A stretch of DNA of 31,500 nucleotides, taken from the IMG/VR virus record IMGVR_UViG_3300035661_000234, positions 1 to 31,500 of that record; one strand, written 5' to 3'. Position numbers and translations under genes: made by a program. The stretch comes from a virus. The stretch's first letter is position 1. Each line of letters starts with the position of its first letter. This document shows positions 1-22,269 of the stretch, in pieces. The notes beneath the pieces were generated by a model that did no database searches, was not told where the DNA came from, and worked only from the letters and a program-made list of their open reading frames with translations.

Positions 1-1094
1 AGATAGTCATTCAAACCAAGTTGGTCGATTACTTTTAATTCATAATCAGTTTGTTTTTCTATTGCTGAGATTTCTTCGTCTGTGTATTTGTCTGGGAAGA
101 ATTTTCTTTCCAATTCTATATTCTCAAGTAACCCTGTCCAAGTTGCTTGTTCGATATAATCTTTTGAATCCATTTTACCTGTGTCAATTTTAGGCAAATG
201 GTATTTTCCTGTTTCAAACTCAAAATTTACTTTCTTTGAGAAGTCAAAGGAATTTTCTAAACAGTTTTCAATGAATTTGGTATCATAGTTATATCCAAAC
301 TGTTTATTGAAGTCGTGATAATCACTTTCATCGTGATAGAATAGATTACGGGCCGATATAGTCCAATCTTGTCCACCCTCATCTTCTGAGGAACTACTTG
401 CTCGTTTACTTCTGATAACTGCATCTTGTAACTCATTATCTTCTCTGTTTACATAATGTACATCACCACCGATAATCATTTTCACATCATACTTCTTACA
501 TAAATGTATGATGAAATTATTTATTGCTTTCTGGTCCTCAATTTCATTCATTTGAATCTCTCCATAGAAATCCTCACCAAACTCGTTTAAATATCTTTTG
601 AAAAGTTCCTCTGCTTCTTTGTGTCTGTTCTCAGCAATATATCTTGAGGTTTTAGAAGCCATACAAGATGAGGTAATCATTAAACCATTCTTTAACTCAA
701 ATAAAGAATCAAAATCAATTCTTGGTTTATAATAATATCCTTCGTTAAAAGACCTATAAGTCAACTCACAAAAGTTTTTATACCCTTCTTTATTTTTTAT
801 ATAAGTTGATTGGTGATAATCTTTATCCTCAAGAGCTCTACCTTTATTTGCAACTCTACTGGTTAAATCATTACAAATATAAAATTCAAGCCCTAAGATA
901 GGTTGAATACCTTGTTTTTTACATTCTTTATAATGGTCATATAGCATTTGAGGACCACCATGGTCGGTTAAAGCTAATGCAGGATGCCCTAATTCTTTTG
1001 CTCTCTTTACAAGATTTTTAATAGATGCTACACCATCCAATAAAGACCCAGAACTATGACAATGCAGTTGAACGAATTTTTTACTATCACACAT
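1..1094 (-). CDS. dnaE: DNA polymerase III alpha subunit (C-family), N-terminal part with PHP domain, truncated by window edge
   Basis: This is the start of a bacterial-type replicative DNA polymerase; about 364 codons are visible before the frame leaves the left edge. Translation from the ATG at 1094 gives a PHP domain at the very N-terminus: an HCHS motif near residues 11-14, TDHG near 43-46, the GLEFY strand near 68-72 and GGDVHY near 208-213. These carry the usual PHP metal ligands, so the domain may be catalytically intact. The segment after residue 230 matches the polymerase linker region, but the catalytic palm aspartates lie outside the window. Many large phages replicate with their own C-family polymerase; the DnaQ-like exonuclease at 15169-15933 could provide proofreading (inference). 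The gene diverges from the + strand GIY-YIG gene across 106 bp. The family is confident; the full domain order cannot be seen. Confidence 0.93.
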   Translation of the reverse strand, partial: MCDSKKFVQLHCHSSGSLLDGVASIKNLVKRAKELGHPALALTDHGGPQMLYDHYKECKKQGIQPILGLEFYICNDLTSRVANKGRALEDKDYHQSTYIKNKEGYKNFCELTYRSFNEGYYYKPRIDFDSLFELKNGLMITSSCMASKTSRYIAENRHKEAEELFKRYLNEFGEDFYGEIQMNEIEDQKAINNFIIHLCKKYDVKMIIGGDVHYVNREDNELQDAVIRSKRASSSSEDEGGQDWTISARNLFYHDESDYHDFNKQFGYNYDTKFIENCLENSFDFSKKVNFEFETGKYHLPKIDTGKMDSKDYIEQATWTGLLENIELERKFFPDKYTDEEISAIEKQTDYELKVIDQLGLNDY

Positions 1095-1200: not shown

Positions 1201-1515
1201 ATGGCAAAATACGTATATCTGATAAGGCAAGAAGATACAACATTATTTAAAATAGGAGTTTCAAAACATCCTGAAAAAAGATTGCTTGAAGTTCAAACAG
1301 GCAATGGTAACAAATTAATACTTGTAGAATATTTTGAAACTAAGTTTAATACAAAATTAGAATCCTGTATTCATGCACATTTTAAACTTAAGAGAGTAAA
1401 TTTGGAATGGTTTGATATTCCGTTAGAAGACGTAAAGAACTTTAAGAATATCTGTCAATTATATGAAGACAACTTAAAGTTCTTAAAACAAAATAATTCT
1501 GTGGTTAAATTTTAA
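1201..1515 (+). CDS. GIY-YIG-superfamily protein of the T5orf172/MUG113 type
   Basis: A 104-residue protein matching the T5orf172-like branch of the GIY-YIG nuclease superfamily. Visible signs are the first strand YVYLI at residues 4-8, the KIGVSKHPEKR block at 17-27 with the conserved Arg, a Glu at 54, histidines at 58 and 60, and the EWF motif at 69-71. Proteins of this group are single-domain nucleases or DNA-binding modules, often mobile or regulatory in phages; the target is unknown. It is one of only three + strand genes in the window and faces away from the polymerase gene, as expected for an inserted or independently controlled gene. It ends one base before the stop of the convergent AAA+ gene, leaving no room for a separate terminator. 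Confidence 0.75.
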   Translation: MAKYVYLIRQEDTTLFKIGVSKHPEKRLLEVQTGNGNKLILVEYFETKFNTKLESCIHAHFKLKRVNLEWFDIPLEDVKNFKNICQLYEDNLKFLKQNNSVVKF

Positions 1516-3225: not shown

Positions 3226-3654
3226 TTAATCAAACTCAATTGGATAAATTAAATTCTTTTCTTCTTTATAATGCTTTTTAAAAATTTCTTTTATTTCTTC
3301 AATTGAAAATCCAGCAATGCCACAACCTACTTTTGTTAAATAAAAAGTATAGTCAGGATGCCTGTTAATACAATCAAATAAATACTCAAACTCTAAATCT
3401 AATTCTTCCAATGAAAGTTTTAGCATAGCGCCTGGTTCACTTGTAGTTGTTGGATGATATAATGTAGGTAAAGCATAGCATAAACCAGTTAAACCTCTAC
3501 CAACTCCCCATTCTGCAAAAAACATATCGTGAGCTACTCTTGCAGCTCCACCATAATGTTGACCTTCTGAGTTAGAACCAAAAATAAATATTTCTTTTTG
3601 TTCTAAGGCTGTGATATTCTCAGGTGTGTATTTTTTATATGTTAGTGTACTCAT
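3226..3654 (-). CDS. Macro-fold phage protein of the A1S_2505 type
   Basis: A 142-residue protein whose core resembles the short macro-domain-like phage family known from A1S_2505. Residues 22-42 contain the strand IFIFGSN followed by a Gly-rich turn and GGAARVA, the position of the ADP-ribose-binding loop in macro domains. A second glycine-rich block, VGCGIAGFS, lies near residues 108-116. Macro domains bind or hydrolyse ADP-ribose derivatives; the specific activity cannot be read from sequence. A second, divergent macro-like gene lies at 6911-7447, and KptA, which makes an ADP-ribose product, at 7724-8272. The gene starts two bases after the I78-like gene ends, so both probably share a transcript. 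Confidence 0.7.
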   Translation of the reverse strand: MSTLTYKKYTPENITALEQKEIFIFGSNSEGQHYGGAARVAHDMFFAEWGVGRGLTGLCYALPTLYHPTTTSEPGAMLKLSLEELDLEFEYLFDCINRHPDYTFYLTKVGCGIAGFSIEEIKEIFKKHYKEEKNLIYPIEFD

Positions 3655-3655
3655 T

Positions 3656-3844
3656 TTAACCTGTTGTTACTTTTACAATTTTATCATCAACTGAATATAG
3701 ATTCAGCCTTTCAGGAACACAATCTGCTGTAATAGGTCTTCCAACACCATCTACAGACACTACTCTGAAATCAATATTAAATGCATTACAATATTTTATT
3801 GCGTGCTCTAAAGTTTTACCTATAAGTTCTTTTTCTATTTCCAT
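3656..3844 (-). CDS. Small protein resembling peptidase inhibitor I78
   Basis: A 62-residue protein with the pattern of the I78 inhibitor fold: an N-terminal GKTLEHAIKYC helix, a basic strand (FRVVSVDG), the ITADCVPERLNLYSVDD segment matching the family's T-x-D-x-x-P-x-RLN signature, and a final IVKVTTG strand. I78 proteins are small compact inhibitors of serine proteases; phage homologues are usually uncharacterised and may inhibit host proteases or act as binding scaffolds. There is no signal peptide, so it would act in the cytoplasm, unlike many bacterial I78 lipoproteins. It sits between the helicase C-half gene (13 bp away) and the macro-fold gene. Confidence 0.6.
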   Translation of the reverse strand: MEIEKELIGKTLEHAIKYCNAFNIDFRVVSVDGVGRPITADCVPERLNLYSVDDKIVKVTTG

Positions 3845-3857
3845 TATATAAAATTAA

Positions 3858-5084
3858 TTAAAATCTGTCAAGTTGCGCGAAAATTTCTTTTAAGATAGAT
3901 TCTTTTGATAATTCAGAAGATTTTTCATAGTCTGTAAAATATTGGCTTTCTTTTCCTTCCAATACAGTTGATACAACCTGCATTTTCCTAGATACTGTTT
4001 CATATAAGATTTCATCAACCGTATCTTTATATAAAAGATATTGGGCTAACACATCTCTTAATTGACCAATCCTATACGCCCTATCCTCCGCCTGTAACAT
4101 AGTTGATGGAACCCAATCCATGTCATTTATAATAATTGAATTAGCAGCCTGAGCATTTAGTCCTACCGACCCAACTTTTAAGTTTAACACCATCATCCTA
4201 ACTGAGGCATCGCGATTAAACTTATCCAACAACTCTATCCTGTCTTTTGCATCAGTACGTCCATCAATAAATAAACTATCAGATTTAAAGGAATCATATA
4301 CTGCATCAACAACTTTCGTAAAGTTTGTAAATACCAATATTTTACTATCTTTATCAAGTTCGTTGTTAATAACCTCAACCAAAGAACCATCCTTTACTTT
4401 TTCTAAAGCAAGGAATTGTCTGCGTAAAATTAATTTAACCATAGCAGAAACCTTTGGGTCTTCTTTTACAAACTCAAGTTCTTCTGGATTTAATAAATCA
4501 ATTTTCTTTTTGATATAGTTATCTACCACAGCATTATATCCTTTAGTGTTCTCAAGATGTAACCAAACCGGTTTTCTTTCCTTGTTTGGTAGGTCTTTTG
4601 CAACATCAGATTTTAATCTGCGTAAAATAATTCCTTTTGTTTCTGCATGGAGTTTTTCTAAATTAGAATGCCCACTAGTGTTCCATCTACCCCACCTATC
4701 CACATATCCATTGCAAAAATCAATTACATAATTTCTCCAGTTCTTAGATAAAGGATGTTTGATTAATTTTAACAGATTAAAATAATCAAGAGGTTTACCA
4801 TCAATAGGTGTTCCTGTAAGCAACCAAATCTTTTTAATATCCTTTTTTGTTTCATCTAGTATGTCATCAAAGATTTGCATTCTTTGAGTTTTGGCATTCC
4901 TAAACTTATGGCAATTACTTACAAGTAGTCCGTTTGCAAAATAGTTGTGATTATCCTCTACTTCAATATTGTAAACATTGTTATTAAATTGTTTCTCTTT
5001 AATGTCAACTACAGTGCATAGTTCTTTTTTATAAACTATGTTTACGATTTTATCTTTAATCCATTTAGTAGTTTTTCTAAACAT
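3858..5084 (-). CDS. SNF2-family helicase, C-terminal half, preceded by the C-half of a split intein
   Basis: A 408-residue product in two parts. Residues 1-57 are a C-intein: block F (VYNIEVEDNHNYFANG) and block G ending in LLVSN, with terminal Asn57 followed by extein Cys58. The penultimate residue is Ser rather than the usual His. Residues 58-408 begin CHKFRN, completing the helicase DECH box whose first half (IIIDE) ends the N-half extein. They contain motif III (LTGTP), a motif V region (SVGLNAQAAN) and motif VI (QAEDRAYRIGQ), the C-terminal RecA lobe of a SNF2/Rad54-like ATPase. Spliced together, the exteins would be 190 + 351 = 541 residues, reasonable for a phage SNF2 helicase. The ATG at 5084 follows AAGGA at 5090-5094, a rare clear Shine-Dalgarno sequence here. 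Its start overlaps the end of the endonuclease gene by 43 bp. Confidence 0.93.
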   Translation of the reverse strand: MFRKTTKWIKDKIVNIVYKKELCTVVDIKEKQFNNNVYNIEVEDNHNYFANGLLVSNCHKFRNAKTQRMQIFDDILDETKKDIKKIWLLTGTPIDGKPLDYFNLLKLIKHPLSKNWRNYVIDFCNGYVDRWGRWNTSGHSNLEKLHAETKGIILRRLKSDVAKDLPNKERKPVWLHLENTKGYNAVVDNYIKKKIDLLNPEELEFVKEDPKVSAMVKLILRRQFLALEKVKDGSLVEVINNELDKDSKILVFTNFTKVVDAVYDSFKSDSLFIDGRTDAKDRIELLDKFNRDASVRMMVLNLKVGSVGLNAQAANSIIINDMDWVPSTMLQAEDRAYRIGQLRDVLAQYLLYKDTVDEILYETVSRKMQVVSTVLEGKESQYFTDYEKSSELSKESILKEIFAQLDRF

Positions 5085-6344
5085 TTTTGTCCTTTTAATT
5101 TACTAATTTGAATATATTCCAATATGTTTTGCTCATTTATAATAATAAATTTCAGATTATTATTTTTACAATATTCAATACCAACTTCTAACTTAATTTT
5201 ATCATTTTGATGCTGAGAATTTGGTTTTATCTCATAAACTATACTATTGTCTTTATCCAGAAAATCTGTTATATAGATTTTCCTTGTATTATTTTTATCG
5301 AAATATTCTATTCGTAATTTTTCATATTCTAAGTTTTGATTACAATACCAAAAACATGCTTCCCAACTACTACGAAACTTTTTTGTTAATCCATTTTCTA
5401 AATTTACTATAGCATCCCAATGGGTATAAGTATTAGTAATACAAGGAGTAAATGTACCATTTAGAATTTTATCTTTTATAATTCTAGAAATTGTTTTACC
5501 CATTTTATCTCTCGCACTTTTTTCTTTCATGGGATTATTACTTTTCATTCTTTTTCTTATATTTTCACATATTTGTTTATGCTTTTCTGGATTATTAATT
5601 TTTAAATTTTTAAATCCAATTTTTTGTTTATTTATTCTTTCCTCAGAATATTTTTTTCCTTTTATATTTGCCCCATTATTATTTACTTGGCATTGGTTTG
5701 AGCAAAATCTTCTGTTTTTTATACTATTTTTATACTCAAAAATGTTTTTACACCATTCGCATTCTTTTTTAACTAATTTATATTTTCTTCGTTTTTCACC
5801 AGATATACTTTTGTTGTTGTTTGTTTGAGGTAAAGTGTTTACGTATTTACCAACACATTTTTTTGTGCAAAATGCGTGTTTTCTATTTTTTATCTTATCA
5901 TATGTGGTTAAATATTCTATATTGCAAAATTCGCATTTGCATAAAATGTTAATTTTTTTATTATCAAAAAGACTATTTAATTTTTTTAAGCAACTTCGCG
6001 AACAATGAATCGAATATTTGGAATAACTTTCTTTTCCGCAAAATATACACTTTTTCTCCCCGCTTAATTTGATTGGCTGATTTATATTGATTATCATTAG
6101 CAATAAATATTTTATGATTATGGGTCATATCATAATTTAAATACTGATTACTTTCGTTTAGTAACGAAATTTCTAAAATTGTGTCTTTCCGGCCATTATC
6201 CCAATAATTAACTATAGGCTTATATTCTAATTTTAAAGTATTTATATTATAACTTAAGATTTGTGCTTTTATTTTTTTTGTTACAATATCACCAATTTTT
6301 AATTCTCCTTTATCTGTTTTTACTAAAGTATCATATGGGAAACA
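4914..6344 (-). mobile_element. Fractured split intein with intervening homing endonuclease gene
   Basis: The span covers the N-intein (from Cys at codon 6342-6344), a free homing endonuclease gene and the C-intein (Asn at codon 4914-4916). It interrupts the SNF2 helicase exactly between the E and C of its DECH box, a conserved ATPase site, as is typical for inteins. The intein is encoded in two separate genes, so the helicase requires protein trans-splicing. The same architecture (split intein halves flanking a nuclease gene) was described as 'fractured genes' in environmental phage sequences. The inserted nuclease gene is visibly more AT-rich than its surroundings: one sampled 60-base line, 5701-5760, has 15 G or C. 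Confidence 0.88.
5042..6097 (-). CDS. Zinc-finger homing endonuclease of the PD-(D/E)XK/Vsr-like kind, inside the split intein
   Basis: A 351-residue protein lying between the intein halves. The N-terminal third has three C-x2-C...C-x3/4-C zinc-binding clusters (about residues 17-36, 55-81 and 113-136), then a Lys/Asn-rich NUMOD-like helical region, and a C-terminal nuclease domain. The latter shows RSSWEACFW (Glu about 246), ITDF (Asp about 278) and YEIKP (Glu and Lys about 289 and 291), the acidic/lysine pattern of PD-(D/E)XK nucleases. It would cut intein-less helicase alleles and drive homing. ATG at 6097 is preferred over the TTG two codons upstream. It overlaps the N-half gene by 125 bp in a different frame, and the first zinc cluster is encoded inside that overlap. 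The extreme AT content supports recent mobility. Confidence 0.82.
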   Translation of the reverse strand: MIININQPIKLSGEKKCIFCGKESYSKYSIHCSRSCLKKLNSLFDNKKINILCKCEFCNIEYLTTYDKIKNRKHAFCTKKCVGKYVNTLPQTNNNKSISGEKRRKYKLVKKECEWCKNIFEYKNSIKNRRFCSNQCQVNNNGANIKGKKYSEERINKQKIGFKNLKINNPEKHKQICENIRKRMKSNNPMKEKSARDKMGKTISRIIKDKILNGTFTPCITNTYTHWDAIVNLENGLTKKFRSSWEACFWYCNQNLEYEKLRIEYFDKNNTRKIYITDFLDKDNSIVYEIKPNSQHQNDKIKLEVGIEYCKNNNLKFIIINEQNILEYIQISKLKGQKCLEKLLNGLKIKS

Positions 6345-6914
6345 CTCATCAATTATTATAACTTCGAACCTTGACTCAACTAATTCTTTTTTCCATTTCT
6401 TTAAAGCATCATAGTGAACTATGGTAAATTTATTAGGTGTCCACTCTTTATCAATTACAGATACCCTGTCATCATAGAAAGAAATTTCGTTTGCAAAGTT
6501 ATATTTTAGTGTTTTTAAAGTGATTACTAAAATATTATATTCATCAGGAAGGAATTTGGATGCCAATACAGATTGTAAAGATTTACCCAATCCCATATCG
6601 TCAGCAAGAATACATCTGTTATTTAAAATTAGAAATTTAATTCCATCTTTTTGGAAATCTCTTGGAGGACGTTCAGAAATTACATCCCAATCAATTTTAT
6701 CTAAAACATATTTATTGATTTCTTTTTCTGTGTCATCAAGGTATTTTTTAAACTTACCATAAGCTCTAGCATCATCAATATACTCTATTGGTTCCTTTTT
6801 TATTAGTTTTTTTCTATAATCTAATAAAAAATCTGGGAGTGTAGGGAATAAAGACAAATCAAGCTCTCTCAATACTTTTCTATAATTCCTTCTATCAATT
6901 ATTGGAAGATTCAT
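5973..6914 (-). CDS. SNF2-family helicase, N-terminal half, followed by the N-half of a split intein
   Basis: A 313-residue product. Residues 1-190 are helicase: a Q-motif-like RDFQKDGI segment at 85-92, Walker A (ADDMGLGKS) at 104-112, motif Ia (LVITLKTL) near 129-136, and the start of Walker B (VIIIDE) at 185-190. Residue 191 is the intein Cys1, opening block A (CFPYDTLVKT). Block B, with its T-x-x-H signature (MTHNHKI), follows about 83 residues later, and block N2/EN-like sequence ends with NQIKRGEKVYIL, a normal N-intein end. The last residues are a basic tail encoded in the overlap with the nuclease gene, and the stop is TAG. On its own this protein cannot hydrolyse ATP because its DECH box is incomplete. 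It starts by ATGA overlap with the macro-like gene upstream. Confidence 0.93.
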   Translation of the reverse strand: MNLPIIDRRNYRKVLRELDLSLFPTLPDFLLDYRKKLIKKEPIEYIDDARAYGKFKKYLDDTEKEINKYVLDKIDWDVISERPPRDFQKDGIKFLILNNRCILADDMGLGKSLQSVLASKFLPDEYNILVITLKTLKYNFANEISFYDDRVSVIDKEWTPNKFTIVHYDALKKWKKELVESRFEVIIIDECFPYDTLVKTDKGELKIGDIVTKKIKAQILSYNINTLKLEYKPIVNYWDNGRKDTILEISLLNESNQYLNYDMTHNHKIFIANDNQYKSANQIKRGEKVYILRKRKLFQIFDSLFAKLLKKIK

Positions 6915-7447
6915 TTCACTTGAAAAATTGCATTAAATAATTTAATATACCACTTCTCTTCTTTCTTTATAACTTTTTTTAACGCTTCCTCTATTGATAT
7001 TTGTTGTTTTTCTGTTTTGCAATAAATAACGAGTTCTTCCACGTATTCTAAATTAGAAAAATAATCAACTGCATTATCTAATATAGATGTAAGTGAATTA
7101 TAATCTGGTATAGTCATAGAAACAAACCTACAAAGATTATCTCCTTGTCTGTATGCATCAATTGTAATTTTTATATGAAAAAAGGACTCTGAATACCTGG
7201 TATGTAAATCAGGGCAGATTGAATGAATGATTAAATTAGCTCTTGTTTCCCCAGGTATAGTTGAGATACAATCACAAAACTTTAAATAGTCTTTGTGAAG
7301 TATTGTAGAATAATAGACCTGACTCTTTGCTTGGTTTATTACTTCTGCAAAAGGCTCAGGTCCAGATTTAAATTGTATGTATGCCCAGTTTATAAGTATA
7401 TCAGTAGGCTCAGTTTCTATTTGCCCTATCTTTACTGTTACTTTCAT
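6911..7447 (-). CDS. Divergent macro-domain-like protein
   Basis: A 178-residue protein whose first half follows the macro-domain plan. The opening KVTVKIGQIETEPTDILIN resembles the canonical 'GDIT...DAIVN' start, a weak Gly-containing segment follows, and RANLIIHSICPD near residues 69-80 matches the strand after the second loop. The canonical Asn-Ala-Asn and GGG-type binding loops are not preserved, so ADP-ribose binding is doubtful. The C-terminal part is a mixed alpha/beta region with a Lys-rich end. It sits between KptA/RNA ligase upstream and the helicase downstream, coupled to the helicase by an ATGA overlap. A macro fold here would suit processing of the KptA product, but that is inference; it could equally be an unrelated Rossmann-like protein. 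Confidence 0.5.
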   Translation of the reverse strand: MKVTVKIGQIETEPTDILINWAYIQFKSGPEPFAEVINQAKSQVYYSTILHKDYLKFCDCISTIPGETRANLIIHSICPDLHTRYSESFFHIKITIDAYRQGDNLCRFVSMTIPDYNSLTSILDNAVDYFSNLEYVEELVIYCKTEKQQISIEEALKKVIKKEEKWYIKLFNAIFQVK

Positions 7448-7691
7448 TTGCTCTATGGTTTAAATAAACAGCCCACTCCCGCTCAGTACCTTTGCCTATA
7501 ATAAACTCAAAAGCTAACCATTGAATAGTAAATTTTGGGATATTGGTTATCCAAAAAACATTATTCGAACGGGTATAAGATAATTTTGATATTCTGAATT
7601 TAGGTATCAAAATTATACTAAAACTACGTAAATTAGTATAGCTTTTAAACTTTGAATAGAATTTAGGTTTGATAGGTAGTTTGCGTGCCAT
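7410..7691 (-). CDS. Hypothetical small basic protein
   Basis: A 93-residue protein with no recognised family. The first 70 residues are rich in Lys, Arg, Phe and Ile with short beta-like segments; the tail after residue 75 is polar. It starts at an ATG 33 bp after kptA ends and overlaps the macro-like gene by 38 bp. That overlap is long for this window, so the true C-terminus or existence of this gene is less certain. It is plausible as a phage gene because it fills the gap in the operon. Confidence 0.45.
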   Translation of the reverse strand: MARKLPIKPKFYSKFKSYTNLRSFSIILIPKFRISKLSYTRSNNVFWITNIPKFTIQWLAFEFIIGKGTEREWAVYLNHRANESNSKDRANRN

Positions 7692-7723: not shown

Positions 7724-8272
7724 TTAAGAAATCAAATTATTCCTGTGAATTTTTATGTATTTAGCAGGAACTGAATCTGTTAACCATACACCGTTTTCAG
7801 ATTTGTAAAACTTATATCCATCAGCTCGCATCTGGGTAGAAGCTATTTCAAGAATTTCTGAACGACCCTTTCTTCTATCTGCAACAATTTTTGCTGTTTC
7901 TGTTTTCTCAGATAGATGTACATGGTTCCTGTTTCTCTTTTCCAAGCCTTCTTTTAAAATGTTTGTAAGAAACTCTTGTTTAGTGCCATGGAACAATATT
8001 TGGGGAGGCTTTTCATCCACAAGCTTCAAATCTACCTCAAGACTATGACCTTGGGATGCTCTGATTTTTGTTTTATCCTCATTGAAGGCAAAACGTTTTT
8101 TATCGTTCTCGGCTACCACTGTTTGTAAGTCCTCAAAACTGATTCCAACAGCATTGATAAGGTCTTCTGTAAAACACCAACCTTCTTTGTCTAAGGTTAA
8201 ACCTGCACTTTCAGGTTTATGTCTTAATAGTAAACTAATGTGTTTACTTGCACTTGTTAATTTTTTATCCAT
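7724..8272 (-). CDS. kptA: RNA 2'-phosphotransferase (KptA/Tpt1 family)
   Basis: A 182-residue protein of full family length. KptA/Tpt1 enzymes move an internal RNA 2'-phosphate, left by fungal/plant-type ligation, onto NAD+, releasing ADP-ribose 1''-2'' cyclic phosphate and nicotinamide. The four catalytic positions are present: Arg17-His18 in LLRH, Arg71 with the following QGHS, and Arg134 in the ADRRKGR stretch. The family motifs LFHGT (93-97), HVHLSE (117-122) and ENGVWLT (159-165) are intact, so the enzyme should be active. The ATG at 8272 overlaps the end of the RNA ligase gene by 8 bp, implying translational coupling, so ligation and 2'-phosphate removal are probably paired. Few phages are known to need this step. 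Confidence 0.95.
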   Translation of the reverse strand: MDKKLTSASKHISLLLRHKPESAGLTLDKEGWCFTEDLINAVGISFEDLQTVVAENDKKRFAFNEDKTKIRASQGHSLEVDLKLVDEKPPQILFHGTKQEFLTNILKEGLEKRNRNHVHLSEKTETAKIVADRRKGRSEILEIASTQMRADGYKFYKSENGVWLTDSVPAKYIKIHRNNLIS

Positions 8273-9308
8273 TATGTTTTAGTTTATTTGGTACAATTTT
8301 TTCTCTTATCCAATGCCCATGAGCATCATTTACTTTTTGTCTAAAAGATGGCTCAACAAATTTTGCTACACTTTTTCTAAAGTCTTTATACTCAAAACTG
8401 CTTGCAAGTCTTATCACGTACCCTTCGGTCTGAGGACCTTTAAAGTTTGTGTTATACTCTTTTATTATTTTCTCCTTATCATAGATTCCTCGGTAGAATA
8501 CAGGTACTACCTTTAAATCTAATAGAGTAGCATAGTCAACTGTCTCGTCCCAAGAAAAACAAGTCATATCCTGCCACACTGAGAATAAATAAAAATAACT
8601 TTCTAAATCATTATACGCAATTGAATGTCTTGCGTAAAGATTCTCTCCGCATAATCTCATACCTTTTGAAAGCTGCCAGCAAACTTTTTGGAATAAATGA
8701 CCACGTACCCAACTTCTACTTTCATGTACAGTTCCATCAATTGACCTTGCATGGATATAATCTGGATAGACACTTGTGTTCTCTCCATCCATTTTAATAG
8801 TGCCAACAACTTCTTCTCCCTCAAAGTTAGAATCATCTTTAAGTTGTCTGTCGTCTTTACCCATTTGCGACCATGGCAAGTGATTTGTACGAGGGTATTT
8901 AATATACTCAGAAAAAGAATCTAACACTTTTCCAGCTTCAAGTATTTTATGAACTGATTCAACATTAAAAAGTTCACCTCTTAATCTGTTACCATTAGGT
9001 AGTAATATGTTTCCCCATTTGTCATATTGTAAATCATCATACAAATGTTCAGGTAACACAACATGTTTAATTCCTGCCTTATCCCTTATCTCATCACAAG
9101 ATAAAGTTGTTTGTTCCGCCTCGATATGATGTTTACCGCATAAAGTTGCACCGTTGTCTAAATAGTATCCACCATCAGAAAATAATCTTCTTTCAATTAT
9201 ATGGTGAGCATCTTGTCCAGGCTCTTTACATATAACACACTTGTGCCCATCTCTCTCAAAGACTCCTTCTCTAAAACTGTCGCGTGTTAATAATATGTTA
9301 CCTTTCAT
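8265..9308 (-). CDS. RNA ligase with an N-terminal HNH domain
   Basis: A 347-residue fusion. Residues 13-65 are an HNH module: CVIC at 24-27, tandem His 35-36, Asn52, a Cys at 57 and His 60-61, so both a zinc knuckle and the active-site pattern are present. Residues about 140-325 are a nucleotidyltransferase-type RNA ligase: motif I with nucleotidyl Lys172 in KMDGE, motif III-like LFSVWQ (241-246), motif IV TEGYVIRL (294-301) and motif V with Lys316 in AKFVEP. The arrangement is that of the PF09414-type phage RNA ligases, which seal RNA ends through an AMP-enzyme intermediate. The HNH addition could target the ligase to nucleic acid or nick it. It is directly coupled to kptA, the strongest functional link in the window. 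Confidence 0.9.
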   Translation of the reverse strand: MKGNILLTRDSFREGVFERDGHKCVICKEPGQDAHHIIERRLFSDGGYYLDNGATLCGKHHIEAEQTTLSCDEIRDKAGIKHVVLPEHLYDDLQYDKWGNILLPNGNRLRGELFNVESVHKILEAGKVLDSFSEYIKYPRTNHLPWSQMGKDDRQLKDDSNFEGEEVVGTIKMDGENTSVYPDYIHARSIDGTVHESRSWVRGHLFQKVCWQLSKGMRLCGENLYARHSIAYNDLESYFYLFSVWQDMTCFSWDETVDYATLLDLKVVPVFYRGIYDKEKIIKEYNTNFKGPQTEGYVIRLASSFEYKDFRKSVAKFVEPSFRQKVNDAHGHWIREKIVPNKLKHNG

Positions 9309-15958: not shown

Positions 15959-17113
15959 TTATAATTCTTTTTGTGAAAGAAAAAATAAATTATTAGATGT
16001 ACCTACTTTTAGTTTATCAATTGTTCTAATCAAAGTAGAACTGATTAAATGGTGGTCTTGTTTACCTAAAAAGAAAACTGCTTTCAAATCTGGTTTCCAC
16101 ATACGGTAAGCATATAATTGAGTTTCTTCCATTTTCAAATCATCACCATTCCGTAAACTTCTTACCAGAGTTACACTACAACCTGTTTTTTCTTCTATAT
16201 TGTTAATATAGTCAGTTAATAGCATACCCTCAGGCAATACATCTATTTCATTATATAGGTGTTCTTTCACATATCCTATTGAGGTTACTTCTCTTTCCAA
16301 ACCTTTATCATCTACAAAATTAAATTTGAAAGTGTCATTTTTCTTCTCAGCATTTAACGCCCATAGTAAAATTATTTTATCAAAATGAGGTTCAGCTTGT
16401 GAACGGGTATCATCATGTCCAATATGATAGGGATTAAAACTACCAGCAAATAATCCTATTTTAGGTTTAAATGCTTTTACCCAATCTATTCTTTTCTTTA
16501 AGGTATCACATCTGTCTGTTAGTTTATTATTTTCTATAAGTTGTTTTTCTAGAAAATCTATTCTACCTGCCTTATATAATTCAACAGGATAACATTGATA
16601 CTCTTTAAAAATTTGATATTCTGTGTCGGCAAGATTTTCTTCGCTATAAAGGTCAGACATATCATAAGAACAAAAGGCATCACTTAATGGTAAAGTTGGA
16701 ATGTGTTTTTTTGTATCTAAAATCATTATTGAAACCTGTTCAACAATATTTTTTATTGTTTTATATGAGTCGTCAGTTTTTACAAACACATCACCGAAAA
16801 TTTCTTTGAAATACTCAACTGATGCTTCTTCATTGTTTGTTTTCCTTGGGTCATAGACAATATCGTGAAACCAAGTTGTGAATACTAATAATTCCACCTC
16901 GGCCTCAGTAAAACGATTATGTATAAAATAATCTCTATGGATTTTAGCAAGCAGTTTTGCTACGTGCACTTCATAGGTGTGAAAATATCTGTGTGGTTCA
17001 TAATACGGAGTTAAAACCTTTTCTTTAAAAGTCTTTGAACTAATTCCATATTTCGCAAAAAGATTATAACTATAATCTAAAAGGAACATATCATCTGCAA
17101 ATTTGTCTAACAT
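15959..17113 (-). CDS. Fusion of HD phosphohydrolase (COG4339-like) and phosphopantetheine/NMN adenylyltransferase-like domain
   Basis: A 384-residue two-domain enzyme. Residues about 30-200 are an HD domain of the COG4339 kind: EPHRYFHTYEVH at 39-50, WFHD with His83-Asp84, and NNEEAS at 93-98, a signature of that group. Residues about 215-384 are a nucleotidylyltransferase: GSFNPYHIGH at 224-233 is the (H/T)xGH ATP-binding motif, LVRSLRNGDD corresponds to the CoaD 'LVRGLR' region, and a late ISSTLIR matches the ISSS-type motif. The second half is closest to CoaD (phosphopantetheine adenylyltransferase) and related to NMN adenylyltransferases. The fusion implies synthesis and breakdown of one nucleotide by one protein. 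ATG at 17113 is preferred over TTG 17149, which would overlap the upstream stop. Confidence 0.85.
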   Translation of the reverse strand: MLDKFADDMFLLDYSYNLFAKYGISSKTFKEKVLTPYYEPHRYFHTYEVHVAKLLAKIHRDYFIHNRFTEAEVELLVFTTWFHDIVYDPRKTNNEEASVEYFKEIFGDVFVKTDDSYKTIKNIVEQVSIMILDTKKHIPTLPLSDAFCSYDMSDLYSEENLADTEYQIFKEYQCYPVELYKAGRIDFLEKQLIENNKLTDRCDTLKKRIDWVKAFKPKIGLFAGSFNPYHIGHDDTRSQAEPHFDKIILLWALNAEKKNDTFKFNFVDDKGLEREVTSIGYVKEHLYNEIDVLPEGMLLTDYINNIEEKTGCSVTLVRSLRNGDDLKMEETQLYAYRMWKPDLKAVFFLGKQDHHLISSTLIRTIDKLKVGTSNNLFFLSQKEL

Positions 17114-17117
17114 ATAA

Positions 17118-18263
17118 TTAAATTTTATAAATTTCTTTTCTAAATTCAAACAATATTGAATCTAATAATTCCACCGGAACTTCTTCTGGTAGTGGTGATA
17201 TTTTTACCAACTCATTTACTTCTTCTAGTTTTTTATCAGCAAAAGAAAGTAATTCATCAAAAGGAAATACACCGGCACGTATTTGTAATAACAATTCTCT
17301 GTTGGGCCTTCTAACAGTAATTTTACCATCACGTAATGCCTCACAACAAGTATCTAATAACCTATAACAATGCATCATGTTTTTACTATCGTATTGGGCA
17401 CCGTTTGCGAGATTATCCTGATATCTTACTTCGTTTCTGTTTTCAACCCACTCCCAATACTTGTTATAAAGTTTGATATAAGTCTGCCATCCTTCAAAAT
17501 TACAATAAAACATTACTTCAGGGCTTAAACCTTTTTCTACGGATGATAATACTATTTGAACATCATCTTTATCGACTATTCCTTTATAAAGTTTTTTATG
17601 TGGACCTGGAGCATTTGTATAATGTTGCAGCACATATTCTCTATCTATAAACAAGTGATAGCAGTTTTTCATATGTTCGATTGCAACAGCACCGCACATT
17701 TCTGGTTTAACGCCCGCGTATTTCAAATATTCTTTTAATGGTTTAGACCCTTGTTTATGAGTTACATAACAAAAATCTAATAGACCTCTCCTTTCCTTAT
17801 CCATTGGGTCCATTATCATTTTGTTCATACCCCTTGCCTTTTTAATTTGCCCAGCAGCATAAGAACCAAAAGAATCTGCAATTTGTCTTGATAATAAAAA
17901 CTCTCTTTTATCTTTCACTAATGTTTTGAACAATGGATGTTGATATAAAACCGTATCCTCGTCCTGCCATAAAATTTCTTGTAGATTAGGACTTTGTTTT
18001 TTTAACAAATCCAGATACCTACCAATTTCATATCCTTTATAATCTTTATCAATTTCAGTTTGAAGAGTATAGGTTTGATTAAGTAATTTATCTAATGGGT
18101 CATAATAGACAAAGACTTTATCGATATCGCTTGTTGGAAGATTTGTACCGTATGCTTGAGAACCAGTAATTGCCTCATATAATAGCATTCCATTATTTCT
18201 CAAATACTCATTATAAGCTATTGCATCTTCGCCTTTTATTATTCTTTGTGCCTCAGTTAACAT
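17118..18263 (-). CDS. RlaP-like nucleotidyltransferase (PF10127, RNA-repair associated)
   Basis: A 381-residue protein with a polymerase-beta-type nucleotidyltransferase start: GSQAYG at residues 34-39 and TSDID at 44-48 with metal-binding Asp46 and Asp48, then a helical remainder typical of the PF10127 (YcgL/RlaP) family. The name RlaP (RNA repair pathway DNA polymerase beta family) reflects recurrent association with RNA ligases in bacteria. Here it shares the window with an RNA ligase and KptA about 8 kb away. It might add nucleotides to damaged RNA ends. The ATG at 18263 follows a 185-bp region rich in palindromes that could control it. The gene ends five bases before the HD/adenylyltransferase gene begins. 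Confidence 0.85.
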   Translation of the reverse strand: MLTEAQRIIKGEDAIAYNEYLRNNGMLLYEAITGSQAYGTNLPTSDIDKVFVYYDPLDKLLNQTYTLQTEIDKDYKGYEIGRYLDLLKKQSPNLQEILWQDEDTVLYQHPLFKTLVKDKREFLLSRQIADSFGSYAAGQIKKARGMNKMIMDPMDKERRGLLDFCYVTHKQGSKPLKEYLKYAGVKPEMCGAVAIEHMKNCYHLFIDREYVLQHYTNAPGPHKKLYKGIVDKDDVQIVLSSVEKGLSPEVMFYCNFEGWQTYIKLYNKYWEWVENRNEVRYQDNLANGAQYDSKNMMHCYRLLDTCCEALRDGKITVRRPNRELLLQIRAGVFPFDELLSFADKKLEEVNELVKISPLPEEVPVELLDSILFEFRKEIYKI

Positions 18264-18765: not shown

Positions 18766-19566
18766 CTACGCCATGTAGTTTTTAACTTCTTTTAACGTCT
18801 CGATAAACTGAGGCGTATATTTGATATCCTTGTGATATGCTAAATCACGTTCAATCAAATCAATTTCTTTTACAATTGTAGCGCCAGGTTTTTCAGGTTC
18901 AACATTCATTACAAACACTGTATCTGAAATTGCAATACTATCTGCCAAATTGTGGGATACAATAACCAAAGTCTTTAATTCATCTGATAAAGAAACTTTT
19001 ACCAATGTGTCAACTACTTTGTCAATCATAAACACATCCAGACCTGAGAACGGCTCATCTAACAAAAGGAAATTTGTTCCTATCATTAATTGTTCTGCAA
19101 TAGATACCCTTTGTTTTTGTCCGCCTGATAACTGGCCTGGAAATTTATCTAAATGCTCCAAAAGATTAAATTCAGTTGCTATTTGATTGATTACATCCTT
19201 TCTGTCTTTCTCATGGATGTTAGGATTCTTTTTTGTTGCTTTGGTTAAAAGAGTTCTTACTGTTCTCCAATAATCAATATAGTAGTCTTGAAACACAACT
19301 CCCATATCTCCTACGTTTGAAACAGTTTGCTCGGCATTAACCAATATTTTACTACCAGCATCTGGTTGTAATAACCCGGCTAAAATATTAAACAATGTAC
19401 TTTTACCAATACCGGACTTCCCAATTAAAGATACAACCTGACCTTGAATAAAATCTGTACGTGTGATATCTCTTATTTTAAAATTGATATCCCTCAGTAT
19501 TTGCTTACCGCCTAATGTGATGTTTACATTTTGAACATCCAACAGCGTGTTTGTTTTTTGTATCAT
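18766..19566 (-). CDS. ABC transporter ATPase, nitrate/taurine (NitT/TauT) type
   Basis: A 266-residue ABC ATPase with all motifs: Walker A GKSGIGKS at 49-56, Q-loop VVFQD at 90-94, signature LSGGQ at 146-150, Walker B LLLDEP at 167-172 and H-loop His205. It would power the permease encoded next door (ATGA overlap at 19563-19566). The closest style is the SsuB/TauB/NitT group, which import small oxyanions or organic acids. The stop is TAG. Together with the permease and OmpA-fused binding protein it forms a complete importer, unusual in a phage. Confidence 0.93.
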   Translation of the reverse strand: MIQKTNTLLDVQNVNITLGGKQILRDINFKIRDITRTDFIQGQVVSLIGKSGIGKSTLFNILAGLLQPDAGSKILVNAEQTVSNVGDMGVVFQDYYIDYWRTVRTLLTKATKKNPNIHEKDRKDVINQIATEFNLLEHLDKFPGQLSGGQKQRVSIAEQLMIGTNFLLLDEPFSGLDVFMIDKVVDTLVKVSLSDELKTLVIVSHNLADSIAISDTVFVMNVEPEKPGATIVKEIDLIERDLAYHKDIKYTPQFIETLKEVKNYMA

Positions 19567-20405
19567 CTTTTACTTTTTTTCATGTACGGATATGCCATCC
19601 TTATTGTTCTCAATATATAATCACAAGTGATACCAAAACTTAAAATAATTAATGCCACTGCGAAAATTTCTGCTAACAATACATGGTGTTCGCTTTTTAT
19701 AATCATAGTACCCAAACCACCTGAACCAATTGCTTTAGCTTCAACCGCCGTAAGCATAGTCCAACCAAAGGCAAAATTCTGCCTGATAACCTCAAACAAT
19801 TGGTCTGACTTACCTACTACAATTACTTCCCATAATGTTTCCCATTTACCACGTTTATTTACATATGATTTATTTAACTCAGTACCTTTGTCAATCACAT
19901 CTGTTATAATAGCAACAAAGGAGGTTGTCAGATAAGGAACTAAACCAAAGAGCAGTAATATTGTTTTTAGACTTTCAACGGTATCGGTGGATGCTGTGAA
20001 AATAAATACAACGCAAGAGAATGGAAGATACCTACACTTAATAATAAAGTTTACAATTGGTTTGAATAATTGGATTGTCCAAAGACATGAAAATATAAGT
20101 GTAAGAGTTATGCCATATAAAAGGCTTGTACCTAAAAATCCTAATGTTGCTAATAGGTTATCGTAAAACTTTACGTCTTGCAAATAAGCAAAAATTTGTT
20201 CAACCACCTCAGATGGTTTTGGAAACAATGGGTTACGAAAGAATTCTAACCAGGCAAATAACAAAGCCAATTCAACTATAAAAATAAATGTTTTGGTCTT
20301 CTTATCTAATGTACCAAATGGATAGAAAAGATTTTTGAATAATGTTTTCCAACCCATAAACAAGCCCGGCAAATGCTGCTTTAAAAAATCTATTGGCTTC
20401 TTCAT
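19563..20405 (-). CDS. ABC transporter permease, SsuC/TauC-like
   Basis: A 280-residue integral membrane protein with about six hydrophobic helices, the first near residues 40-56. A segment near residues 212-236 (QNFAFGWTMLTAVEA followed by GSGGLG) corresponds to the cytoplasmic coupling loop of binding-protein-dependent permeases, where the usual EAA-G pattern is altered to VEAKAIGSGGLG. An N-terminal amphipathic extension of about 35 residues precedes the first helix. It lies downstream of the substrate-binding protein gene, separated by a terminator-like hairpin at 20418-20460. Confidence 0.88.
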   Translation of the reverse strand: MKKPIDFLKQHLPGLFMGWKTLFKNLFYPFGTLDKKTKTFIFIVELALLFAWLEFFRNPLFPKPSEVVEQIFAYLQDVKFYDNLLATLGFLGTSLLYGITLTLIFSCLWTIQLFKPIVNFIIKCRYLPFSCVVFIFTASTDTVESLKTILLLFGLVPYLTTSFVAIITDVIDKGTELNKSYVNKRGKWETLWEVIVVGKSDQLFEVIRQNFAFGWTMLTAVEAKAIGSGGLGTMIIKSEHHVLLAEIFAVALIILSFGITCDYILRTIRMAYPYMKKSKR

Positions 20406-20481: not shown

Positions 20482-22269
20482 TTATCCTTTCAGAACCACC
20501 TGTACCCTTCTGTTTTCTTTTCTTGCCTCAGCACCATTCTGGTCTTTATTAGGATGTAATGGTTTAGTAGAACCAAACCCATCAACATCTTTAATCCTGT
20601 CTTCCGGAATGCCTTGGGCTTTTAAAAATGCCGCAACTGAATTAGCACGTTCTTTGCTCAATGGAATATTTTGTGAATCATTACCGGTATTGTCTGTATG
20701 TCCATAAAGGTTAACAGATAAACCATCACTTGTATTCAACTTAGAAGCCAATTGCAATAATGCCTGTTCCGATGCTTTTGATATTTGCGCTGAACCTGTT
20801 TCAAATTCAATACCATAAGAAGCATCACCTACAACTTCGCCTGTACCTTTTGAATAGTCAGTCTGTAATGCTGAACCGGTTAATAAACCTGCATTAGGAT
20901 TGTCTTTGATTTTTTCTAACGCATCACGTAAGATAGATTTATCAACAATCTCGGTATAGTTTGCAATAGTTTTATAATCCTCAGGATATAACTTTGCATG
21001 GATTTGGCTGAAGTTATTATAAATATCTTTGAAGATATCTCTTGTGTTATTCAATCCAAATATGTTCGCCATATCATTCAAATTGTAAACCATTGAACCA
21101 CCCAGGTGAGCATCATCAGATTTTACATCAACACCATCGTAATATTTAATCCAATATGCTTTTGTATTTTCTCCCCAAACTTTAGCACCCAATTCACAAG
21201 CATATTCTTTTGCTTCTTTATAGGTTCTGATTTGGTCTCCGGCCTTACCTAAAGCAATTGTCATATCAATCAACTTATCACGGTTGGCACTTACGAATTT
21301 TTTACTTCCGATTGTGATGTTAGGCATAATACTTTTGTATGTCAAAGTACTTGCGATAGTAGCACCACCACGTCCATTCTGTGCAGGGTCGTGTGCATTT
21401 ACATCTCCTGGTGTCCAGGTTGCAACCAAGTCATATCCAATCAATGTATCTTTACCTGTGGTCTTACCATTTACAACGATGTGTCTTTTTTCCTTCAAGT
21501 TTTTATTGTAATCTTCAACGGCTGATAAATAAGTATTTGAATAACTTAAATTCAAAGCGTCTGGATAATACAATGTTGGGTCTCCATTGATAGGAATTTT
21601 ATTATCATTACAAACCTGAATGGCGATATCCAAATCACCATCTTCTTTCACACCGCGGGCAACCTTACCCCTTAATAATTGTTTGTTTTCTTTTATTTCT
21701 TTAGGCCCAATCAATTGGTCTTCACCGAATGATTTACCTGTGGTAAGAAACACTACCGGGCCCCATTCTGCACCCAGTTCTTTTGTTGCATTTTTAATTG
21801 CGTTCACATAGTTATCAATACCGGAACCCATATAGGTTACGAACATACCATCTTTACGTTTTCCTTCTTTGTAATCTTTCAGATATTTGATAAATGCATC
21901 ACGTGATTGGTTACAGTCATCTTGGCGTACGATTTTAACATTCAAACCTGCGTCTTCCATTAAGGATGCTCCTGTTGTTTGAATTCCACCGTTTGCGAAA
22001 ATAATACTGTTTTGTGATTGCCACATCATCATCTGCCATTCAATATCCAATCCTGGTTTGTTACTTACCTGGGTACTTGGGAATGGTAATTTTACTGCTG
22101 CGCTACCCTGTAAAGAAGCTGTCGGTTCATCTGGTAAAGTAACTTTTGCCAATGTTTGTGCTTCACCTACTGTTCGTGGTCTCGAATTAAATTTCCAAAG
22201 ACCGAATACTGCTGCGGCGATTAATATCCCATAAAGGAGTTTTTTACCGCCTGGTTTAATTTGTGCCAT
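20482..22269 (-). CDS. ABC substrate-binding protein fused to an OmpA peptidoglycan-binding domain
   Basis: A 595-residue protein. Residues 10-28 form one membrane helix without a clear cleavage site. Residues about 75-440 resemble a NitT/TauT- or phosphate-type periplasmic binding fold. Residues 485-595 are a complete OmpA-like domain: FETGSAQ, GHTDN with peptidoglycan-binding Asp526, LSKERA with Arg541, and the NRRVQV end. The protein would thus be anchored in the inner membrane and held to the cell wall while delivering ligand to the permease. Bacterial proteins with this domain pair are annotated as phosphate ABC binding/OmpA family proteins; whether the ligand here is phosphate is unknown. 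It is the fifth gene of a leftward run beginning near 25.2 kb. Confidence 0.88.
   Translation of the reverse strand: MAQIKPGGKKLLYGILIAAAVFGLWKFNSRPRTVGEAQTLAKVTLPDEPTASLQGSAAVKLPFPSTQVSNKPGLDIEWQMMMWQSQNSIIFANGGIQTTGASLMEDAGLNVKIVRQDDCNQSRDAFIKYLKDYKEGKRKDGMFVTYMGSGIDNYVNAIKNATKELGAEWGPVVFLTTGKSFGEDQLIGPKEIKENKQLLRGKVARGVKEDGDLDIAIQVCNDNKIPINGDPTLYYPDALNLSYSNTYLSAVEDYNKNLKEKRHIVVNGKTTGKDTLIGYDLVATWTPGDVNAHDPAQNGRGGATIASTLTYKSIMPNITIGSKKFVSANRDKLIDMTIALGKAGDQIRTYKEAKEYACELGAKVWGENTKAYWIKYYDGVDVKSDDAHLGGSMVYNLNDMANIFGLNNTRDIFKDIYNNFSQIHAKLYPEDYKTIANYTEIVDKSILRDALEKIKDNPNAGLLTGSALQTDYSKGTGEVVGDASYGIEFETGSAQISKASEQALLQLASKLNTSDGLSVNLYGHTDNTGNDSQNIPLSKERANSVAAFLKAQGIPEDRIKDVDGFGSTKPLHPNKDQNGAEARKENRRVQVVLKG

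Follow-up and report, generated by a model that had tools for sequence, protein, structure and literature searches.

How does a phage make a working helicase when the gene for it is broken inside the motif required for ATPase activity? This question is raised by the IMG/VR virus record IMGVR_UViG_3300035661_000234, of which we analyzed positions 1 to 31,500 (this whole stretch is called the window below). Here a phage SNF2 helicase is encoded in two pieces by separate genes, with a nuclease gene between them, and all three genes lie on the minus strand. A first-pass annotation had read the break, which falls between the E and the C of the conserved DECH motif (motif II), as a split intein in a fractured gene, and our analysis confirms this observation, including the nuclease gene between the intein halves. 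Judging from the sequence features described below, we further propose that the locus probably derives from an unbroken intein with a homing endonuclease (HEN) gene nested in its +1 frame, and that a swap of the nuclease half of this HEN split the intein. The features of the locus are the following (window coordinates; a slash marks a splice junction throughout).

6914..5973, minus strand: N-half gene, 313 residues, comprising SNF2 helicase residues 1-190 and a 123-residue N-intein (TIGR01445, E 1.4e-7)
5976..6344, minus strand: N-intein with Cys1, block A and block B (THNH); its last ~22 residues lie out of frame over the nuclease gene
5042..6097, minus strand: putative endonuclease gene, offset by +1 from the reading frame of the two intein halves; it starts at ATG 6097 or possibly further upstream at TTG 6103
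5534..6103, minus strand: predicted DNA-binding half of the nuclease, about residues 1-190, with three Cys4 zinc fingers, of the nested-HEN type
5045..5533, minus strand: predicted nuclease (catalytic) half, about residues 191-353, of the fractured-gene type, TnsA-like PD-(D/E)XK
5090..5094, minus strand: Shine-Dalgarno-like AAGGA, 5 nt upstream of the C-half ATG and within the nuclease gene
4914..5084, minus strand: C-intein, 57 residues, with block F and the ending ...LVSN/
5084..3858, minus strand: C-half gene, 408 residues, comprising the C-intein and SNF2 helicase residues 191-541 (from Cys+1)

The intein models match both helicase-half genes, and the matches fall exactly at DE/C and SN/C. 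In the N-half product, TIGR01445 (intein N-terminus) covers residues 191-270 and Pfam Intein_splicing also matches (3e-5), while the C-half product opens with a match to TIGR01443 (intein C-terminus, E 3.6e-8) followed by SNF2 and Helicase_C. The N-half reads ...FEVIIIDE/CFPYDTLVKT...YDMTHNHKIF..., with CFPYDTLVKTDKG directly after IIIDE, the Cys1 codon at 6344-6342 and 123 residues beyond the splice point. The C-half starts as MFRKTT...VYNIEVEDNHNYFANGLLVSN/CHKF, its intein part terminates in ...NHNYFANGLLVSN, and the helicase resumes as CHKFRNAKT.... The defining features of a class 1 intein splicing domain are all found here, namely Cys1, the TxxH of block B, block F (VYNIEVEDNHNYFANG), the terminal Asn and Cys+1. 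A penultimate His is usual in class 1 inteins but does not strictly define them; the window intein has Ser in its place. The length of the C-intein, earlier thought to be unusual, resolves into a typical C-intein of ~35 residues and ~20 further residues that are largely encoded within the 3' end of the nuclease gene.

Joined at DE/CH, the two exteins form a protein of 541 residues that is gapless at the junction against the unbroken helicase of Rhodothermus phage RM378 (27% identity, E 2e-49). Between the halves the intein frame is closed by 51 stops within the nuclease gene. A second contig carries the same DNA (99.97% identity over 7,733 bp, 2 mismatches), which makes a single assembly error unlikely; together with the 51 stops it led us to reject a sequencing or assembly frameshift. 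In single-sequence searches of viral contigs with the helicase halves, this near-identical contig was the sole close relative, and profile searches were needed to find others. Protein trans-splicing to the 541-residue helicase is the best reading of this arrangement, and the earlier claim that such an event would be needed for an active ATPase is in line with it.

The nuclease open reading frame (ORF) between the halves encodes a free-standing protein of 353 residues; 125 nt of it are shared with the N-half gene and 43 nt with the C-half gene. It matches a TnsA-like Pfam family (1.3e-7), and in the fold comparison of its nuclease half the top match was TnsA (probability 0.99, E 0.04). A sequence search of the PDB returned nothing beyond weak matches to LAGLIDADG endonucleases, which we judged to be due to chance. 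In 2009, Dassa et al. reportedly described genes fractured by split inteins together with a stand-alone endonuclease, and a Vsr-like endonuclease family is said to occupy about half of the loci in that study; the window nuclease gave no match to the Vsr family. When the protein was compared with the profiles of two HEN families, residues 1-210 scored 57.9 bits with the nested family and -7.7 bits with the fractured-gene family, whereas the remainder after residue 210 scored 2.7 and 132.8 bits, respectively. The crossover between the profile types lies near residue 190. By these scores, the window nuclease is a chimera of a nested-type DNA-binding half and a TnsA-like catalytic half of the fractured-gene type.

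The insertion had been regarded as new for the DECH box of an SNF2 helicase, but it is not unique, since inteins occupy the identical DE/CH site in dozens of phage SNF2 and UvsW-type helicases, both split and unsplit. The fractured layout recurs in two T4-like phages, Proteus phage PM2 and Salmonella phage S16, whose helicases are of the UvsW type, and in a helicase from Prevotella Lak phages, where TAG is read as Gln; in each of these loci a homologous nuclease separates the halves. Profile searches of IMG/VR added several dozen split UvsW-type loci as well as a group of unbroken SNF2 inteins that occupy precisely this site. SN/C is the commonest ending in this intein family; therefore the Ser before the terminal Asn, which had been taken as unusual, is no special mark of the window. 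Four further loci (L113, L114, L126 and L118) are split SNF2 inteins inserted three codons downstream, at DEIHK/C; their halves are separated by a DUF559-type nuclease that is not nested. Because the split group of L113 and L118 retains a DUF559-type nuclease, splitting of SNF2 inteins probably occurred more than once.

The unbroken SNF2 inteins contain no recognizable intein-frame domain in the stretch between their splicing blocks, and the +1 frame of this stretch is open for 200-350 codons. In each of 19 inteins compared, the +1 ORF matches Pfam DUF559 and the intein-frame translation matches Intein_splicing; the +1-frame HENs bear Cys4 zinc fingers. At 27 loci we counted intein-frame stops after shuffling the +1 gene among its synonymous codons, with 1000 shuffles for each locus. 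The natural count is zero at all 27 loci, against shuffle means of 7-16, and zero was reached once in 27,000 shuffles, while the third frame holds about the same number of stops as in the shuffles. Mean pairwise identity is 0.54 for the +1 protein, 0.39 for the intein frame and 0.39 for the unused third frame, and the pairwise changes between nested loci cluster at the third positions of +1 codons. The intein frame is no better conserved than the third frame, and therefore it is kept open but not kept for its sequence. In an AlphaFold2 model of one nested intein (L097), the HINT domain is confident, with a predicted local distance difference test score (pLDDT) of 80-90 in the first block and similar values in the last strands, and pLDDT is below 50 across most of the dual-coding stretch; the best PDB match of the model is the NrdJ-1 split intein (8ubs). 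Three other loci (L102, L103 and L122) are mini-inteins from which the dual-coding stretch has been deleted in frame.

A search with the +1-protein family, sampled from viral contigs, cultured phages and bacterial genomes, showed the same phase and an open spanning frame in 98 of 103 loci (76 of 81 clusters at 70% identity), although an intein is not proven at every one of these loci because in some the short intein profiles did not recognize both ends. In L255-L257 the DUF559 HEN is free-standing or has no open second frame across it, and the plain DUF559 genes L277, L278 and L282, which served as a negative control, lack a spanning second frame. Inteins with a nested out-of-frame endonuclease were found in Longilinea arvoryzae (L250) and in a metagenome-assembled genome of Desmonostoc (L251), as well as in Pseudomonas phage MR14 (L331) and Vibrio phage 1.194.O (L332), for which the records list just a helicase or a coil-containing protein. 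We lean towards the view that these loci represent a large, unrecognized class of mobile inteins, situated mostly in motif II of phage helicases, with the HEN in the +1 frame of the intein and an intein frame that is merely a stop-free, unstructured spacer. Split inteins such as the one in the window would then result from exchange or drift of the second-frame nuclease, by which dual coding is lost and splicing passes from cis to trans.

The window retains the geometry of this class. Both intein halves share one frame, and the HEN lies in the +1 frame and starts inside the N-intein, 247 nt after Cys1, compared with offsets of +229 to +244 in most nested SNF2 relatives. It departs from the class in the stops inside the HEN and in the missing DUF559 nuclease half, for which the score of 2.7 bits was given above. 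No intein-frame stop occurs until 122 nt into the nuclease gene, so that the N-half still runs across the first zinc finger in a different frame. The N-intein itself scores 90 bits with the SNF2-intein profile against 37 bits with that of the UvsW split inteins, and in the N-intein tree the approximately unbiased (AU) test rejects a grouping of the window with the UvsW split clade (p 0.007).

We suggest that the ancestor was an unbroken SNF2 intein with an endonuclease in its +1 frame, and that recombination replaced the nuclease half of this overlapping gene by one of the type found in fractured-gene cassettes. Since the incoming DNA carries intein-frame stops, the swap would have split the intein in the same step, leaving both of its ends in one frame; a nuclease-half swap could in this way have converted a dual-coding intein that splices in cis to the split form. 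In the present phage, the two helicase-half genes would be translated separately, with the C-half using the ribosome-binding-like site that precedes it within the nuclease gene. Association of the intein halves and trans-splicing through Cys1, the terminal Asn and Cys+1 would then restore an intact DECH motif and hence the ATPase, while the nuclease would cut alleles without the intein and so spread the cassette. The intein blocks, the insertion site, the frames, the chimeric nuclease and the nested relatives are seen directly in the sequences, and splicing, nuclease activity, homing and the order of events are inferred from them.

Several points weigh against this reconstruction. No close relative of the window in the nested state was found in the searched contigs, so that the nuclease swap is reconstructed and not observed. 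The two HEN families share zinc fingers and an NNPM motif, and part of the N-terminal HEN signal could therefore be convergent. The group submitted to the AU test was picked after the tree had been viewed. Finally, the C-intein is equivocal (50.5 bits for SNF2 versus 46.3 bits for UvsW split inteins), and in the tree of the N- and C-inteins combined a grouping with the UvsW split clade is not rejected (AU p 0.24). This near-equal affinity also speaks for another origin, by which the whole fractured cassette, split intein and nuclease together, moved from a UvsW-type helicase to the equivalent DE/CH site of the SNF2 gene, and the identical site, layout and homologous nuclease half of the UvsW fractured genes fit such a move. 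We nevertheless consider it unlikely in view of the N-intein scores, the rejected union in the N-intein tree and a HEN DNA-binding half of the SNF2-intein type.

The direction of change might also be the reverse, with split SNF2 cassettes ancestral and nested dual-coding inteins formed from them by stop loss and fusion. Both states exist, the trees are unrooted, and split SNF2 inteins with a DUF559-type HEN are known (L113, L118). But the nested state is far commoner in the HEN family and always in the same +1 phase, removing tens of stops from one frame without altering the HEN is hard, and the window HEN is a hybrid instead of an intermediate, which together render this order of events rather improbable. 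We attach a similarly low probability to the locus being a dead relic, whose halves no longer splice and whose helicase fragments either cooperate non-covalently or are inactive. There are precedents for HEN insertions after which an enzyme stays functional in pieces, such as the split nrdA of Aeh1 (PMC2988022), yet in the window every catalytic intein position is intact, both ORFs are full length, and the gene is interrupted within the Walker B motif, a place where tails left unspliced can be expected to inactivate the ATPase. Phage HENs often reside within introns, and a group I or group II intron could in principle join the halves at the RNA level. However, an Rfam search of positions 3500-7500 up to E 1 matched no intron or other RNA family, and the coding sequences flanking the nuclease are intein halves; we rejected this explanation as extremely improbable.

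The window resembles the fractured genes of Dassa et al. (2009), work that is cited in PMC3229294, in that a split intein interrupts a conserved gene of DNA metabolism and its two halves flank an endonuclease gene; it differs from that set in its SNF2 host, its mostly unbroken intein lineage and its hybrid nuclease. With the uvsW genes of S16 and PM2 and the Lak helicase gene, it shares the insertion point, the overlapping order of helicase-N, HEN and helicase-C, and a homologous nuclease half, whereas those loci have a UvsW-type host, an N-intein of another clade and another DNA-binding part in the HEN. They are not labelled as split inteins in the database records examined. With the unbroken SNF2 DE/CH inteins (L092-L125 and others), it agrees in host gene and site, in the lineage of the N-intein, in the +1 phase and in the zinc-finger half of its HEN, but in those the intein frame is open throughout, so that cis splicing is expected, and the nuclease half is of the DUF559 type. 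NrdJ-1 (8ubs) and gp41-1 (6qaz) are split inteins with the same HINT fold in other host genes. A published out-of-frame endonuclease, within an insertion that keeps the host frame open, is similar to the nested class; it is, however, an HNH and not a DUF559 enzyme, and its authors found no intein or intron splicing domain, while the insertion here is a genuine intein. Our literature search found no paper on a split intein in UvsW and none on a second-frame endonuclease within a genuine intein, in a coverage that leaves out most subscription journals and is therefore no proof of novelty; split inteins and SNF2 appear together in 12 papers. What is new about the locus lies in its kin, the unbroken same-site inteins with +1-frame HENs, which the first-pass annotation had overlooked along with the chimeric nuclease.

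The origin of naturally split inteins is an open question, and the window and its relatives suggest a route. Three states occur at one site of one helicase family, namely an unbroken intein that carries a nuclease in its second frame, a mini-intein that has lost the nuclease by deletion, and a split intein with a hybrid nuclease, and a concrete route can therefore be tested. The nested class would also imply that annotated phage and bacterial helicases conceal endonuclease genes in another frame. The split inteins of the DECH site are added candidates for protein-ligation tools.

The same phage has another intein-split gene, for DNA polymerase III alpha (DnaE), at 1..1094 on the minus strand and continuing in L002 (6640-8079 and downstream). 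One gene closes with ...FVGPGRG/CFLPGSKVV... and the next opens with ...DHSYNIENVVVHN/SAAASVVCWALG, with no nuclease between them; the window includes just the first part. The other strand holds a T5orf172/MUG113 (GIY-YIG-like) gene (1201-1515, plus strand), possibly another mobile nuclease, which is located between the split dnaE and the next genes.

The remaining genes of note are all on the minus strand. RNA-repair genes at 7724-9308 and 17118-18263 encode a KptA/Tpt1 2'-phosphotransferase, an RNA ligase with an HNH-like N-terminal part and an RlaP-type nucleotidyltransferase, and the product of 15959-17149 combines a cytidylyltransferase-like domain with an HD-domain-like N-terminal part. 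At 18766-20405 on this phage contig, the gene for an ABC transporter ATPase stands beside that of a permease-resembling membrane protein, and adjoining these transporter genes is one for a 595-residue protein with an OmpA C-terminal domain (20482-22269).
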